DNA from: Methanothermococcus thermolithotrophicus DSM 2095
GTDB lineage: Archaea; AGJL01; Methanococci; Methanococcales; Methanococcaceae
Reading direction: 5' to 3'
DNA: 64,000 bases
Assembly: GCF_946463545.1 (NCBI RefSeq)
Contig: NZ_OX296583.1
Coordinates: forward strand, 1,029,035 to 1,093,034
The notes beneath the pieces are model-generated. The model made no database searches. It had not been told where the DNA came from and worked only from the letters and a program-made list of their open reading frames with translations. Shown here piece by piece: positions 5,236-53,335 of this stretch (position 1 is the first letter of the stretch; the number at the start of each line of letters is the position of its first letter). The position numbers and the translations under genes are program-made.

Positions 5236-5349
5236 TGCCGAGGGGGGGACTCGAACCCCCGACCTCTCGGTTTCCCAGGACCCAAGGATGTTACTCCTTG
5301 GGAATTTCCGTATGAGCCGAGCGCTATAACCAGCCTAAGCCACCTCGGC
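5236..5349 (-). tRNA. tRNA-Met (CAT), elongator type, with intron
   Basis: The minus strand folds as a cloverleaf with acceptor GCCGAGG/CCTCGGC, discriminator A, T arm GGGGG-TTCGAGT-CCCCC and anticodon stem CTCGG/CCGAG. The anticodon CAT is followed by one A and then by about 39 nt of extra sequence before the 3' half of the anticodon stem, the canonical 37/38 intron site cut by the archaeal bulge-helix-bulge endonuclease. The mature tRNA would be 75 nt. CCA is not encoded. I call it elongator because it lacks the initiator-type AGCGGG acceptor. Confidence 0.93.
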
Positions 5350-47055: not shown

Positions 47056-47082
47056 TTTTTATTTTTTTATTTTTTTTATTAT
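47056..47082 (+). terminator. T-rich terminator after serB
   Basis: The stop codon is followed by TTTTTATTTTTTTATTTTTTTT, a strong oligo-T stretch expected to end transcription before the sulfate cluster. Confidence 0.55.
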
Positions 47083-47206
47083 GTATGAGCTCTAACATTT
47101 TTTAAATTAACTTTTTAATAATGGAATATTTAACTACACAGTATAGTTAATGAAATCTATTTACTATTTTTTACAATGATTAATCACTAATAGAAAACTA
47201 TATATA

Positions 47207-47217
47207 TTAGTATTGAT
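47207..47217 (+). promoter_or_regulatory. Probable promoter of the sulfate-assimilation cluster
   Basis: AACTATATATA lies about 300 bp upstream of sat. An initiation site near 47240 would place the 40-residue cysteine-rich reading frame and a pair of 14-bp direct repeats in a leader of about 265 nt. The rest of 47083-47288 holds nothing else I can identify. Confidence 0.4.
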
Positions 47218-47288
47218 AATGTAACCAAACACGGTTAAATCCGTTAAAAAGTTAATATAATTCAATAAACTATATGGGGTTGATAGTC

Positions 47289-47411
47289 ATGTGTCATATG
47301 GAATTGTATATTTGTGGTTGTTGTAGGATGAAGGAGTACTTTCTGAAAAAAAAGAATAGGGCAATTAAGTGCTTTATTAATGGGAAATTAAGTGCTTTAA
47401 GTTATGGATAA
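47289..47411 (+). CDS. Possible cysteine-rich leader peptide upstream of sat
   Basis: An ATG at 47289 opens a 40-residue frame starting MCHMELYICGCCRMKEYFLK, with five cysteines... four in the first twelve residues and one later. GGGGTTGAT upstream is a fair binding site. The DNA also contains the direct repeat AATTAAGTGCTTTA at 47363-47376 and 47386-47399. The position in the sat leader suggests a cysteine- or sulfur-responsive element, but it could be a small structural protein or chance. No homolog is recalled. Confidence 0.4.
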   Translation: MCHMELYICGCCRMKEYFLKKKNRAIKCFINGKLSALSYG

Positions 47412-47506
47412 CGCTTGGATTAAGTCATGGAAAATACAATAGGTAAATACAATAAGTATGTATGAATATTAGAGTATGTAAGAATAAATATTTAGGGTGA
47501 TTACTA

Positions 47507-48655
47507 ATGGTTTCAAAACCTCATGGTGGAAAGTTAGTCAATAGGGTAGCTACAGAAAAAACAAAAGAGAAGATTTTGGAAGAACAGAATGAATTTTCAA
47601 AAGTTCAAATTAGAGAAGGGACTGCAATAGATTTGGAGAATATAGCACATGGAGTTTATTCACCACTAACAGGTTTCTTAAGAAAGGATGAATTCCAGTC
47701 AGTACTGGACAATATGAGACTACCTAATGAGTTACCTTGGAGTATTCCAATAGTTTTGGATGTAACTGAAAAAGAAAAGAACTTTGGAGAAGGGGATGTC
47801 ATTTTACTCTATTACAATGATACCCCAATAGCAAAGATGCAGGTTGATGAGATTTACACGTACGATAAAAAAGAATTTGCAAAAAAAGTTTTCAAAACAG
47901 ATGAAGAAGCCCATCCTGGTGTAGCTAAAACTTATGCATTAGGAGAATATTTGGTTGGCGGTGAAATTGAGCTTTTAAATGAGGTACCCAATCCGTTTAA
48001 AAGCCACACGTTAAGACCTGTCGAAACAAGGGCGTTATTTAAAGAGAAAGGTTGGGAAACTATTGTAGCATTCCAAACAAGAAACGTTCCTCATTTAGGA
48101 CACGAGTATCTACAAAAGTTGGCACTAACCTTTGTTGACGGAGTTTTTGTAAACCCTGTTATTGGAAAGAAAAAGAAAGGGGATTACAAAGACGAGGTAA
48201 TTTTAAAAGCCTATGAAACCCTGTTCGAGCACTACTATCCAAAAGATACAGACATTCTGGCAACAGTAAGATATGAGATGCGTTATGCTGGACCAAGGGA
48301 AGCAATACATCATGCAATAATGAGGAAAAACTTTGGATGTACTCATTTCATTGTTGGAAGGGATCATGCTGGAGTTGGGGATTACTACGGACCATATGAA
48401 GCTCAAGAAATATTCCAAAACTTCCCAGACTTAGAAATTTCTCCAATATTCTTCAGGGAGTTCTATTACTGTAAAAAATGTAATGCAATAGTTCATGATA
48501 GAATCTGCCCACACACGTCAGAATACAGGGAACACTTTAGCGGAACAAAAATTAGAAACATGATTGTTAATGGAGAACTACCTCCTGAGTACTTCATGAG
48601 AAAAGAAGTCTATGAAACAATAAGAAGCTTTGAAAACCCATTTGTGGATGAGTAA
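47507..48655 (+). CDS. sat: ATP sulfurylase
   Basis: The 382-residue homo-oligomeric type sulfurylase has QTRNVPHLGHE (190-200), GRDHAGVGDYYG (284-295) and a zinc site C322, C325, C334 and H336 (CKKCNAIVHDRICPH). It forms APS and pyrophosphate from ATP and sulfate. There is no fused APS-kinase domain. The start at MVSKPHGGKL follows GGGTGATTACTA. It is the first structural gene of the cluster and its stop lies 1 bp before the PAP phosphatase start, so the two are coupled. Context shows an assimilatory role. Confidence 0.95.
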   Translation: MVSKPHGGKLVNRVATEKTKEKILEEQNEFSKVQIREGTAIDLENIAHGVYSPLTGFLRKDEFQSVLDNMRLPNELPWSIPIVLDVTEKEKNFGEGDVILLYYNDTPIAKMQVDEIYTYDKKEFAKKVFKTDEEAHPGVAKTYALGEYLVGGEIELLNEVPNPFKSHTLRPVETRALFKEKGWETIVAFQTRNVPHLGHEYLQKLALTFVDGVFVNPVIGKKKKGDYKDEVILKAYETLFEHYYPKDTDILATVRYEMRYAGPREAIHHAIMRKNFGCTHFIVGRDHAGVGDYYGPYEAQEIFQNFPDLEISPIFFREFYYCKKCNAIVHDRICPHTSEYREHFSGTKIRNMIVNGELPPEYFMRKEVYETIRSFENPFVDE

Positions 48656-48656
48656 T

Positions 48657-49604
48657 ATGTTAGTGATACACCATTGGGATACGGACGGAATAACCTCAGC
48701 GGCTTTAACTATTAAGGCCTTAGGGCTAGATGATTTCATCAATATTGTGCCCCCTATCGGGGAATTTAGATTTGATGGAAGGGTAAAAAAACACATCGAA
48801 GAAGCAGAAAAGGTTTATATTTTAGACTTGAATCTCCCGCAAGAAGTGGAGGATGTAGAAAAAGATACTGTATTCATCGACCACCATCTGCAAAAAAAGA
48901 TTAAAAATCCAAAAGTTAGGCAAGTAAATCCAATCTTAGAAAGGATGAACGGGAAGGAGTTCCCTTCAGCATCATTTGTGGTTTCTAACCACTTTTCACT
49001 GTGGAACTCCTGGAGCTCCCTTGGAGCAGTTGGGGATATTGGAAACAAAGCCTTTGAAATCCCCAAAACTTTAGAACTTTTAAAAACCGAAGGTTTAACA
49101 AAAAACGAAGCACTAAAACTTGTTCAGTTGATAGATTCAAATTATATAACAATGGACAGAAGTGCTGCGGAAAAAGCCGTTGAATTGGTTTTAAATCGAC
49201 CACTTAAAGAACTTTTGGAGTATGAACCCTGGATTAAAAATCTCGAAGAGATAGAAAGAACCATCAAAGATGTCTTGTCAGGAATTGAGGTTAAAAATGA
49301 CATTGCATTTATCGAATACTCAAGTCCTTTCAATATAATCTCAAAAATTGCAAGAAAAGCAGTTTGGGAGATGGGATATAACGGAGCAGTAGTTTTAAAC
49401 AGGTCATTTCATGAAAAAGCCCAATTATACTTTAGGATTTCTCCAGATTTAAAAGAAAAAATAGATATGGAAGGAATAATTCAAATACTGAAAAATAGGG
49501 GATTCAATGCAGGTGGCAAAAGCGAAGTTTTAGGCATAATTTTTGAAAAAAATAGGATAGATGAAGTCTTAGGAATTATCAATGGATACTTAGCCAGTTT
49601 ATAA
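48657..49604 (+). CDS. DHH-family phosphatase, probable PAP phosphatase
   Basis: The 315-residue protein has the DHH superfamily motifs HHWDTDGITSAA (5-16), ILDLNLP and FIDHHLQKK (about 72-80), and a C-terminal DHHA1-like part with NRGFNAGGKSEVLG. Most DHH proteins are nucleases or small-nucleotide phosphatases. Here the gene is locked between sat and APS kinase, which fits removal of 3'-phosphoadenosine 5'-phosphate, the inhibitory by-product of PAPS reduction. I recall such a DHH PAP phosphatase being described in M. thermolithotrophicus. Alternative starts at 48648 and 48630 overlap sat; I chose 48657. Confidence 0.85.
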   Translation: MLVIHHWDTDGITSAALTIKALGLDDFINIVPPIGEFRFDGRVKKHIEEAEKVYILDLNLPQEVEDVEKDTVFIDHHLQKKIKNPKVRQVNPILERMNGKEFPSASFVVSNHFSLWNSWSSLGAVGDIGNKAFEIPKTLELLKTEGLTKNEALKLVQLIDSNYITMDRSAAEKAVELVLNRPLKELLEYEPWIKNLEEIERTIKDVLSGIEVKNDIAFIEYSSPFNIISKIARKAVWEMGYNGAVVLNRSFHEKAQLYFRISPDLKEKIDMEGIIQILKNRGFNAGGKSEVLGIIFEKNRIDEVLGIINGYLASL

Positions 49605-49784
49605 AATAACTGAATGCACAGCGAATAAAACCAATAATAACGTAAGTAGGCCCAGGCTATATTCTTAGATTGAAATATAATAATAAATATTATATACTCA
49701 ACCTGGATCGATAGGCCGTATAAAGACAATATATGTAGCATATACATGACAATATTCAATAAAAAAACAATTGGAGGGTATATC

Positions 49785-50354
49785 ATGAGTGAAGAATTAA
49801 ATAACGGTGAAAATTCACTTTTAAAAAATCTTGAGGATGGATTTACAATTTGGCTTACTGGCCCAAGTGGGGCAGGAAAATCAACTTTGGCTTATGCTTT
49901 AGAGAAAAAATTATTGGAAAAGGGATTTAGGGTTGAGATCTTAGATGGAGATGTAATAAGGAATACACTATATCCAAACATTGGATTTAGCAAGGAAGCT
50001 AGGGAAATGCATAACAGGGTGGTCATTCACCTGGCAAAACTACTTTCAAAAAATGGTGTAATAACAATAGTTTCCCTTATCTCACCATATCGGGCAGTTA
50101 GAGAATATGCAAGAAAAGAAATTCAAAACTTTATGGAAGTTTATATCCACAGCCCCCTTGAGGTCAGAATCCAGCGAGATCCAAAGGGACTCTATGCTAA
50201 GGCATTAAAAGGAGAAATTAAAGGACTAACTGGATATGACGGGGTTTATGAAGAACCTGAAAATCCAGAGCTTAAAATTGAGAGCCATAAAATGAGCATT
50301 GAAGAGGAAGTAGACACTGTGATACGAACTGCACAGAAACTCGGCTATCTTTAA
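49785..50354 (+). CDS. cysC: Adenylylsulfate (APS) kinase
   Basis: The 189-residue kinase has Walker A GPSGAGKST (26-34), DGDVIRNTLYPNIGFSKEAR and SLISPYRAVREYARKEI, with RDPKGLYAKALKGEIKGLTG for APS binding. It phosphorylates APS to PAPS. The start follows TTGGAGGGTATATC; 13 residues upstream lack support. A 180-bp gap with its own TATA-like ATATTATATACTC (49690-49702) separates it from the phosphatase gene, so it may start a second transcript. The transporter gene follows with 10 bp spacing. Confidence 0.95.
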   Translation: MSEELNNGENSLLKNLEDGFTIWLTGPSGAGKSTLAYALEKKLLEKGFRVEILDGDVIRNTLYPNIGFSKEAREMHNRVVIHLAKLLSKNGVITIVSLISPYRAVREYARKEIQNFMEVYIHSPLEVRIQRDPKGLYAKALKGEIKGLTGYDGVYEEPENPELKIESHKMSIEEEVDTVIRTAQKLGYL

Positions 50355-50364
50355 GGTGGGCCTT

Positions 50365-51117
50365 ATGCTACTCTTCACATTTCTTGGTTTTGTGGTGGGT
50401 GTACTTGTTGGGCTAACTGGAGTGGGAGGAGGGGCATTAATGACCCCTTCTTTGATATTTTTAGGCGTTGAACCACTAACGGCAGTAGGCACTGATTTAG
50501 TATATGCATCTGTCACAAAAATATTTGGAACGATCTTCCATAGAAAAAAAGGAAATATTGAGCTAGATACTTCTTTAAAATTATTTGCGGGTAGTTTTCC
50601 AGCTATAATAATAGGCTCTCAAATTTTAAGATATGTCAATAGGGACCTTATAAACCATCATTTAACTGTGTTTCTTGGTATAATCCTAATAATAACTTCC
50701 ATATTGAGTTTAAGAAAAGGTAGATTTGAAGGACGTAAGAGTCTTAAATTCTTGACTTTGATACTACTTGGATTTTTCGTGGGATTGGTAGTTCAATTCA
50801 CTTCGGTAGGTGCCGGCGTTTTAGTGGGATTTATACTTGCTAACTTTACCACATTAAATCCCCGTTATGTTGTGGGTACTACAGTCTTTTATGGATTAAT
50901 GCTCTCCTTAGTTAGTGCTGCAAGCCACATTAGCCTAGGTAATGTTAACTATTATTTATCACTGTGGCTAGTTCTTGGAACCATTCCTGGTGTTTATTTC
51001 GGCACCCACTTAAATTCAATTATCAAAAAAGATAAGCTTAGAAGGGTTATCAATATGCTAATCTTATTTACGGGAATGGTAACCATAGCAAGTGTGTTTA
51101 ATGGGTTTAAACCCTGA
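50365..51117 (+). CDS. TSUP/TauE-SafE family permease, candidate sulfate or sulfite transporter
   Basis: The 250-residue protein has about eight hydrophobic segments and the duplicated TSUP motifs LVGLTGVGGGALMTPSLIF and FTSVGAGVLVGFIL. Members move anions such as sulfite, sulfoacetate or taurine. Its place right after APS kinase (GGTGGG binding site) and before the PAPS reductase suggests sulfate or related oxyanion movement, either import or sulfite relief. The direction and substrate cannot be read from sequence. Confidence 0.85.
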   Translation: MLLFTFLGFVVGVLVGLTGVGGGALMTPSLIFLGVEPLTAVGTDLVYASVTKIFGTIFHRKKGNIELDTSLKLFAGSFPAIIIGSQILRYVNRDLINHHLTVFLGIILIITSILSLRKGRFEGRKSLKFLTLILLGFFVGLVVQFTSVGAGVLVGFILANFTTLNPRYVVGTTVFYGLMLSLVSAASHISLGNVNYYLSLWLVLGTIPGVYFGTHLNSIIKKDKLRRVINMLILFTGMVTIASVFNGFKP

Positions 51118-51306
51118 TACATATTTCTCTTTTTAATATCTTTTTAATTACCAAATAAATTCAAAAACTGACATTGAAATAGCAAATATAAAAATAGTGG
51201 TATTACTGGCAGGAATTTGTCCATTTAATCAAATCTAGTTTATTTACAATTCTTACATACATTGCAACCTTACCTTCATTTAAACTTTGCACTGGAGGTT
51301 AAAATA

Positions 51307-51318
51307 ATGGCATTATGA
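51307..51318 (+). other. Four-codon mini reading frame with strong Shine-Dalgarno
   Basis: ATG-GCA-TTA-TGA is preceded at ideal distance by GGAGGT (51294-51299), 36 bp upstream of and in frame with the PAPS reductase alpha start. It could tune translation of the reductase. Reading the TGA as selenocysteine would extend the reductase N-terminus, but no other sign supports that. Confidence 0.3.
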
Positions 51319-51342
51319 CGTATTAAAACAGGTGATAGAAAA

Positions 51343-53031
51343 ATGGATGTTAAAAAAATATTTACTGACATCTTAATAATCGGCGGTGGAGCTGCAGGAT
51401 GTCAGGCCGCAATAAGGGCAAAGGAGATAGATAAAAATTTAGATGTCCTAATAGTAGAAAAAGCCAATATAATTAGAAGTGGCTGCTTAGCTGCTGGAGT
51501 TAATGCCATAAATGCTTATTTAAATGAGGGAGAAACTCCAGAAAGTTATGTAGAATATGTAAAAAAGGAATCTTCTGGTCTTATAAGGGAGGATTTAACA
51601 TACACAATAGGAAAAAGATTAAACAAAATGGCAAAAAAACTAGAAGAGTATGGGTTGCCCATTCAAAAAGATGAAAACGGTCGATACGTGGCCAGAGGAA
51701 AGCGAAGTATAAAAATTAATGGAGAAAGTATAAAGCCAATTTTAGCAGAGGCTACTTTAAAAGCAGGTGTTAAGGTTTTAAACAATACAATAGCTACGAA
51801 TTATATTTTAAAAGATGAAACAGTTTGCGGAGCTTATGCTTTTTCTATAAAAGAGAATAAATTTTACGTAATAATGGCAAAAGCAGTAATATGTACAACA
51901 GGTGGGGCTTCAGGCATATACAAACCAAACAACCCTGGTGCGGCAAGACATAAAATGTGGTATTCTCCGTTTAATACTGGCGCAGGATTTGCAATGGGGC
52001 TTAGGGCCGGGGCAGAAATGACAACGTTTGAAATGAGATTTATAGCTCTAAGGGTAAAGGACGTAATATCTCCAACAGGAACTATTGCACAGGGAGTTAA
52101 AGTATCACAGATAAATGCACTTGGAGAAAAATACATGGAGAAATATGAAAATAACACTACACCAATGAGATTGTATGCGACTTTGATTGAAAATCTTGAA
52201 GGAAGGGGGCCTTGCTATCTTGATACAAGGGGAATAAGCGATGAAGATGTTCAAAAGTTAAAAGAAGCCTATTTAAGTATGTCACCAGGGATTATTTTAA
52301 AATGGAAAGATGAAAAAATAAATCCTAAAAACACGCCTATTGAGATATGCGGATCTGAACCCTATATCGTGGGAGGTCATGGACAGGCAGGATATTGGGT
52401 AGATATCAATAGAAAAACAACCTTGGAAGGATTATATGCAGCAGGGGATGTAGTCGGAGGTTCGCCTAAAAAATATGTTACAGGATGTATGGCCGAAGGC
52501 GAAATAGCAGTAGAAGCAGCAATAGAATATATAAAAAGCATGGAAAATGACATAGAAATAGACGAGCAAGAAATAGCAAAAGAAATAGATAGGGTATTCT
52601 ACCCATTAAACAATAAAAAAGGAGAATTCTCTCCTGATGAAATAGAAGAAAGAATGCAAAAAGTAATGGACGAATATGCTGGTGGGATATCTTCCTATTA
52701 TCGGGTAAATGAATCAAAACTTTTAATTGCAAGAGAACTGCTAAAAGCCATTGAAGAAGACCTTAGTAAAATAAAAGTTAGAAACAGGTATGAATTGATG
52801 AAATATCACGAAGTGGTAGATAGAATATTGGTTGCTAGGGCGGTAGTGGAACATTTGTTATATCGTAAAGAAACACGGTGGAAATGTTATCAGGAAAGGG
52901 TTGATTATCCTGAAATAGACGATAATTGGTTTAAGTTTATAAATTCCAAATATAATAGTCAAACGAATGACATAGAGATTATAGAACGGGAATATGAGAA
53001 ATTTAATCCGGTGATCAATAATGACCATTAG
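51343..53031 (+). CDS. PAPS reductase alpha subunit, AprA-like flavoprotein
   Basis: The 562-residue protein starts with a Rossmann FAD motif IIGGGAAGCQAA (12-23) and follows the fumarate reductase/AprA fold (RSGCLAAGVNAIN, TTGGASGIYKPNNPGAARHKMWYSPFNTGAG, GLYAAGDVVGGSP) with the AprA-type C-terminal helical region (VEHLLYRKETRWKCYQERVDYP). AprA family members reduce APS; the adjacent APS kinase and PAP phosphatase imply that this one uses PAPS. I recall exactly this enzyme being characterised in M. thermolithotrophicus. The start follows GGTGATAGAAAA. It overlaps the beta gene by 11 bp. Confidence 0.88.
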   Translation: MDVKKIFTDILIIGGGAAGCQAAIRAKEIDKNLDVLIVEKANIIRSGCLAAGVNAINAYLNEGETPESYVEYVKKESSGLIREDLTYTIGKRLNKMAKKLEEYGLPIQKDENGRYVARGKRSIKINGESIKPILAEATLKAGVKVLNNTIATNYILKDETVCGAYAFSIKENKFYVIMAKAVICTTGGASGIYKPNNPGAARHKMWYSPFNTGAGFAMGLRAGAEMTTFEMRFIALRVKDVISPTGTIAQGVKVSQINALGEKYMEKYENNTTPMRLYATLIENLEGRGPCYLDTRGISDEDVQKLKEAYLSMSPGIILKWKDEKINPKNTPIEICGSEPYIVGGHGQAGYWVDINRKTTLEGLYAAGDVVGGSPKKYVTGCMAEGEIAVEAAIEYIKSMENDIEIDEQEIAKEIDRVFYPLNNKKGEFSPDEIEERMQKVMDEYAGGISSYYRVNESKLLIARELLKAIEEDLSKIKVRNRYELMKYHEVVDRILVARAVVEHLLYRKETRWKCYQERVDYPEIDDNWFKFINSKYNSQTNDIEIIEREYEKFNPVINNDH

Positions 53032-53335
53032 GATAATAGAAGAGATATGCATAGGTTGTGGATTATGTACAAAAGTATGTCCAGGTAATTTACTGTACCA
53101 GAGGGAAGATGGAAAATCGGAAATTATGGACAAGAGAGATTGCTGGGATTGCGCAGCGTGTGTTAAGGAGTGTCCAGTAAATGCTATAGAAATGTATCTT
53201 CAACCTGAAATAGGTGGTAGAGGTTCAACATTAAAAGCTAAAAAAACAGATGATAGTATAGTATGGATAATAACAGATAATAATGGCGAAGAGGAGGTTA
53301 TAGAAGTAAAGAATAAAAAAACATTTGATATGTAG
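53021..53335 (+). CDS. PAPS reductase beta subunit, 2x[4Fe-4S] ferredoxin
   Basis: The 104-residue protein has two cluster motifs: C10, C13, C16, C20 (CIGCGLCTKVCP) and C41, C44, C47, C51 (CWDCAACVKECP), followed by a short tail with EMYLQPEIGGRGSTLKA, as in AprB. It passes electrons to the flavin of the alpha subunit. Canonical AprB proteins of sulfate reducers are about 150 residues with a long C-terminal arm wrapping AprA; that arm is shortened here. The overlap with the alpha gene indicates translational coupling. Confidence 0.92.
   Translation: MTIRIIEEICIGCGLCTKVCPGNLLYQREDGKSEIMDKRDCWDCAACVKECPVNAIEMYLQPEIGGRGSTLKAKKTDDSIVWIITDNNGEEEVIEVKNKKTFDM

Follow-up and report, generated by a model that had tools for sequence, protein, structure and literature searches.

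The sulfate-assimilation locus of Methanothermococcus thermolithotrophicus very probably joins a bacterial-type PAPS reductase to an older PAPS-making operon

Sulfate-dependent growth in a methanogen is proven in one case only, that of Methanothermococcus thermolithotrophicus, which grows with sulfate as its sole sulfur source; the locus was described by Jespersen and Wagner (2023) through growth, enzyme assays and structures (PMC10322725). Its two-subunit reductase, MtPAPSR, has the architecture of the dissimilatory adenosine 5′-phosphosulfate (APS) reductases AprAB (Archaeoglobus fulgidus, 2FJA; Megalodesulfovibrio gigas, 3GYX), with the same fold, FAD, [4Fe-4S] clusters and α2β2 assembly, yet prefers 3′-phosphoadenosine 5′-phosphosulfate (PAPS) as its substrate (PMC10322725); its loop residues also differ from theirs. 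Pyrococcus yayanosii has a cluster in which ATP sulfurylase, DHH-family phosphatase for 3′-phosphoadenosine 5′-phosphate (PAP) and APS kinase are ordered as here, with a TauE gene adjacent (PMC8268124); type I phosphodiesterase and CopG genes are present there and missing here, whereas the PAPS reductase is added here. Clostridial aprA-aprB-cysD-cysN operons encode a homologous AprAB-like reductase (alpha subunit about 45–60% identical), often beside cysC; CysDN replaces the monomeric ATP sulfurylase at most of these loci, the transporters are of the ABC or DASS type, no homologue of the M. thermolithotrophicus PAP phosphatase was found at them, and most have Asn at alpha-subunit position 122 and no APS kinase. 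Here we examine a stretch of 64,000 nucleotides from M. thermolithotrophicus DSM 2095 (the window), in which six genes at positions 47507 to 53335 are the published locus itself, five of its proteins being identical to the described ones and none different. Very probably, this sulfate-activation and PAPS-reduction locus was built on an older PAPS-making operon to which a bacterial-type reductase was added. Its features are as follows.

47056..47506, + strand: upstream region, 451 bp, presumed cluster promoter (from the sequence and the list of open reading frames, ORFs)
47507..48655, + strand: ATP sulfurylase (MtATPS), 382 amino acids; identical to PDB 8a8d_A; PF01747, PF14306 and NF003166 above cut-off
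48657..49604, + strand: DHH-family PAP phosphatase (MtPAPP), 315 amino acids; identical to PDB 8a8k_A; PF01368
49605..49784, + strand: gap of 180 bp between MtPAPP and MtAPSK, site of a PF01663 phosphodiesterase gene in four relatives
49785..50354, + strand: APS kinase (MtAPSK), 189 amino acids; identical to PDB 8a8h_A; TIGR00455
50356..51117, + strand: predicted TauE/TSUP-family anion permease; PF01925, E=1.2e-45
51343..53031, + strand: AprA-like PAPS reductase alpha subunit (FAD), 562 amino acids, loop Lys120-Arg121-Ser122; identical to PDB 8a8o_A; NF005331 (NCBIfam ‘adenylyl-sulfate reductase’) above cut-off
53021..53335, + strand: PAPS reductase beta subunit, 104 amino acids, eight Cys for two [4Fe-4S] clusters; identical to PDB 8a8o_C

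All six ORFs of the preliminary description were confirmed as co-directional on the + strand with the functions it had named: five are PDB chains and the sixth carries PF01925. MtATPS matches its chain at 382/382 amino acids, PAPSR alpha at 562/562 and PAPSR beta at 104/104, and the DHH protein and the kinase match the M. thermolithotrophicus chains of PAP phosphatase and APS kinase from end to end without a difference; the kinase scores 231.6 bits against TIGR00455 (cut-off 138.7). On the basis of the PDB chains and the sequence, two starts were corrected, that of MtPAPP to 48657 from a TTG at 48630 and that of MtAPSK to 49785 from 49746.

In this pathway, ATP sulfurylase makes APS and APS kinase makes PAPS, the AprAB-like flavoprotein/ferredoxin pair reduces PAPS to sulfite and PAP, and the DHH phosphatase splits PAP into AMP and phosphate; sulfite is then reduced to sulfide by Fsr, whose genes lie elsewhere. 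For identical sequences, the literature has shown the steps from sulfate through APS and PAPS to sulfite plus PAP, and from PAP to AMP. The preliminary description had read the genes as converting sulfate to sulfite and clearing PAP, had taken their order to point to PAPS rather than APS as the substrate, and had linked such a pathway to M. thermolithotrophicus. Published assays on the identical proteins bear it out on these points: in a coupled assay, MtPAPSR turned over PAPS at 0.114 and APS at 0.007 U/mg (µmol/min/mg), and PAP-phosphatase activity was measured for the DHH protein (PMC10322725). We found no contrary evidence among the published facts.

The preliminary description also held that the final sulfite reductase lies outside the locus and that the pathway would fall if the genome encoded none or the organism did not grow on sulfate. 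No sulfite reductase is encoded within the 64-kb window. The whole genome of 1,706,496 bases gave three NIR_SIR matches, all outside the window; two are full-length proteins of the Fsr type (621 and 633 amino acids; matches at G000:C1:834914 and 1559506), so that the genome holds a complete route from sulfate to sulfide. Their genes are:

G000:C1:833651-835516 (L121:7652-9517): Fsr-type sulfite reductase
G000:C1:1558207-1560108 (L122:6208-8109): Fsr-type sulfite reductase

Two Fsr isoforms were reported in this organism, and completion of the step from sulfite to sulfide by Group I Fsr was supported by extract activity and native gels (PMC10322725). When the DNA of the pair is aligned, identity is about 94–99% at columns ~181–990 and 97–100% at ~1531–1710, 57–71% over most of the intervening stretch and 42–68% at the 5′ end, a mosaic that looks like gene conversion between the isoforms. 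The third NIR_SIR match is a small sulfite-reductase-like protein of 271 amino acids (G000:C1:832711-833526, L121:6712-7527, minus strand), divergent from the Fsr gene at 833651. Elsewhere in the genome, two proteins match PF01507, the thioredoxin-type PAPS/APS reductase domain, strongly (G000:C1:683718-684233, − strand; G000:C1:50621-51154, + strand); one putative reductase of this type, WP_018154242, was named previously (PMC10322725).

Among 36 Methanococcales genomes, M. thermolithotrophicus included, ATP sulfurylase occurs in eight, whereas a search of the other 35 for PAPSR alpha gave nothing at E<=1e-60, the nearest proteins there being members of the wider flavoprotein superfamily with 27–30% identity. 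The gene order is ATPS-PAPP-(PF01663 gene)-APSK-TSUP in genomes G020, G022, G031 and G032, and ATPS-PAPP-APSK-TSUP in G027, G035 and, across the contig origin, G024; the TSUP gene adjoins the APS kinase gene in all seven relatives with the operon (7/7), and a CopG-like gene lies upstream in the four phosphodiesterase-bearing genomes. These operons correspond to the archaeal cluster described for P. yayanosii (PMC8268124). Most are surrounded by genes for flippases, an STT3 oligosaccharyltransferase, glycosyltransferases or sugar-nucleotide enzymes; in G024, the genes past the APSK-TSUP end look like glycosyltransferases by eye, without a family scan. We identify G024 as Methanocaldococcus infernus, since its ATPS, APSK and PAPP are 70.604%, 75.439% and 59.683% identical to those of the window and the values printed for M. 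infernus are 70.60, 75.44 and 59.68 (PMC10322725).

In G035, a UDP-glucose/GDP-mannose dehydrogenase gene containing an intein with LAGLIDADG domains (L133:1254-3950) lies directly upstream of the ATPS operon. An ORF of about 110 amino acids that resembles a fragment of a mobile element occurs in M. infernus just upstream of ATPS (L136:2632-2961) and again between two sulfotransferase genes (L137:7927-8259).

The eight genomes with ATP sulfurylase fall into three non-overlapping classes by their candidate PAPS consumer. Of the 36 genomes, exactly three encode PF00685 sulfotransferases (G024, G027 and G035), each of which has ATPS, and a PF13469 search returned the same three; in G027 and G035 the genes and the operon are about 1.1–1.3 kb apart, and M. 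infernus encodes two ordinary PF00685 sulfotransferases. The PF01663 phosphodiesterase of the operon (91–100% identical) is found in exactly the four genomes G020, G022, G031 and G032, which belong to two families, and identity above 90% among them is high conservation; its gene at L120:9763-11151, with homologues in G022, G031 and G032, overlaps the APS kinase start by 4 bp. The AprAB-like reductase forms the third class, with M. thermolithotrophicus as its only member. If relatedness is ignored, the chance that random genomes would all fall among the eight with ATPS is 0.008 for three and 0.001 for four. Given these three classes and the glycan-gene neighbourhoods, we read the older operon as a PAPS supply for sulfation whose consumer changed in this lineage: the ATPS-PAPP-APSK-TSUP operon probably made PAPS for the sulfation of surface glycans in most relatives. 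The published account had proposed a non-canonical sulfotransferase for other methanogens, left the role of their genes open and called the pathway ‘mix-and-match’ (PMC10322725). A more specific idea, that the PF01663 protein, with its alkaline-phosphatase fold, represents a new fold of PAPS-dependent sulfotransferase in the four relatives without PF00685 or PF13469 proteins, and that the PAPS reductase replaced it here, we regard as doubtful; a pyrophosphatase activity has been suggested instead (PMC8268124).

The reductase has its kin elsewhere. A search of genomes of 84,980 species for its relatives returned 80 loci, all bacterial and nearly all from Clostridia, with cysN at 65/80 and cysD at 64/80 (by homology cluster) and, at many of them, sulfate ABC transporters and ferredoxin-type sulfite reductases. 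These operons are assimilatory, and the AprAB-like enzyme is a member of their clade, which is widespread among Clostridia. The closest bacterial alpha subunit among the genomes returned is 60% identical; Caldanaerobius fijiensis, named as the closest bacterial relative at 68% (PMC10322725), was absent from them. Because a single archaeon of the order carries the reductase, which is widespread in bacteria, we infer that transfer ran from bacteria to the methanogen, and because the kinase is archaeal and the kin of the reductase are bacterial, the reductase would have been joined onto an archaeal operon. Sulfate-based life would thus have been gained when a PAPS reductase of bacterial type was added downstream of the older Methanococcales operon for making PAPS, with the older PAPS-consuming gene either lost or never there in the M. 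thermolithotrophicus lineage.

Several points weigh against this account. The GC content of the reductase genes (0.35–0.36) equals that of their neighbours and gives no compositional sign of a recent transfer. In the tree, the M. thermolithotrophicus reductase sits on a long branch outside the main clostridial group, which is why we name no donor. A tblastn search for a PF01663 remnant in the 49605–49784 gap gave only an 8-residue chance match, so that loss of that gene is not distinguished from its original absence. The suggested repurposing draws on eight genomes and gene neighbourhood, and a sulfated glycan has been demonstrated in none of the eight.

Comparison of the bacterial enzymes directs attention to one residue of the substrate loop. 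In MtPAPSR, Lys120-Arg121-Ser122, which were proposed to be PAPS-specific (PMC10322725), stand where A. fulgidus has Gln-Trp-Gln, position 122 aligning to Gln145. At this position the bacterial relatives have Ser or Asn and, once, Gly. An APS kinase is found nearby at 18/20 loci with Ser122 and at 1/59 with Asn122; at the level of genomes (strong matches only, M. thermolithotrophicus included, some genomes being incomplete bins), the kinase is present in 23/23 with a small residue and in 2/37 with Asn122 (Fisher p=1.3e-14). Nine further genomes that came from an even draw within a clostridial class, made after the rule had been noticed, fit it as well: one has Ser with the kinase, one Gly with the kinase and seven Asn without it. 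In the near-identical pair L016 (Ser) and L017 (Asn), both have the kinase, and Asn122 alone may not abolish the use of PAPS. We infer from these patterns that residue 122 would act as a size gate for the 3′-phosphate.

That the Ser/Asn difference reflects only shared ancestry, unrelated to PAPS or APS, is possible, if on the unlikely side: most Asn122 proteins fall in one large clade, and once relatedness is taken into account only about four independent changes are left, three of them in agreement with the kinase, none opposed and one uninformative, with no change of kinase (sign test p=0.25). Four observations speak against shared ancestry alone. The lone reversal to Ser within the Asn clade, L086, has an APS kinase in its genome; Nitrospirota that bear Asn have no APS kinase; Gly at position 122 also accompanies the kinase; and A. 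fulgidus Gln145 would clash with the 3′-phosphate, according to the crystal structure (PMC10322725). A rival proposal takes the AprAB-like enzyme here for an APS reductase like those of dissimilatory sulfate reducers, the neighbouring APS kinase serving something else. Its alpha subunit lies in the AprA superfamily, with A. fulgidus AprA as its best non-identical solved match; further, since CysDN without an APS kinase yields no PAPS by this route, its close Asn122 relatives in kinase-free genomes must use APS. For MtPAPSR, however, the proposal is refuted by the coupled assay, in which activity with APS was about 6% of that with PAPS (PMC10322725), and the protein carries the Lys-Arg-Ser loop and falls below the curated cut-offs for aprA (TIGR02061, 396.9 vs 641.75 bits) and aprB (TIGR02060, 45.8 vs 135.65 bits), leaving this explanation with next to no probability.

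Two other accounts, both very improbable in our view, concern the locus as a whole. That it is mainly a source of PAPS for sulfation in M. thermolithotrophicus, with reduction as a side activity, would agree with the position of the operon amid glycan genes in its relatives, three of which encode sulfotransferases; but a genome-wide search of M. thermolithotrophicus, limited to the PF00685 and PF13469 families, found no sulfotransferase, a close PF01663 homologue is likewise absent, the operon follows serB and other housekeeping genes, and the organism grows with sulfate as its only sulfur source. Import of kinase and reductase as one bacterial cysC-aprA-aprB cassette would agree with the position of cysC directly upstream of aprA-aprB in Clostridia with the same type of reductase; it sits badly with the identity of MtAPSK to methanococcal kinases (74–76%) as against clostridial ones (40–50%), and with the TSUP gene that separates the two, since this gene also belongs to the archaeal operon. 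Addition of a reductase alone to the older operon is the reading that we favour.

The comparison offers proposals for the role of the PAPS-making genes in other methanogens, for the failure of M. infernus to grow on sulfate (reported in PMC10322725) and for the source of the unusual reductase. In many gut Clostridia and Lachnospiraceae, the AprAB-like enzymes probably serve as assimilatory APS reductases; metagenome surveys should not count them as dissimilatory sulfate reduction. In the openly searchable literature, from which subscription papers and the supplement of PMC10322725 were excluded, we found no earlier report of the clostridial link between cysC and aprAB or of sulfotransferases beside methanococcal ATPS; the consumer classes, the M. 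infernus sulfotransferases and the clostridial assimilatory clade with its residue-122 pattern are not in the main text of PMC10322725 and are new within that literature. These additions come from a sample of modest size, and are specific and testable.

The MtPAPP start codon lies 1 base past the MtATPS stop and the two reductase genes overlap by 11 bp; with gaps of 180 bp ahead of APSK and 226 bp ahead of PAPSR alpha, the genes may form more than one transcript. Scans of the window with a bacterial promoter model and for terminators gave no excess over shuffled sequence (34 vs 28.4 and 4 vs 3.7). For the TSUP protein, nothing here supports a role as sulfate importer; putative transporters of the DASS/SUIP class, WP_018154444 and WP_018154062, were named previously (PMC10322725). 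Within the region upstream of the cluster, a 45-amino-acid ORF with a CGCC motif lies at 47274–47411 on the + strand. An Rfam scan of the window returned tRNAs only, among them one of 114 bp (54 bits; 5236–5349, − strand) that ARAGORN missed and whose length suggests an intron.

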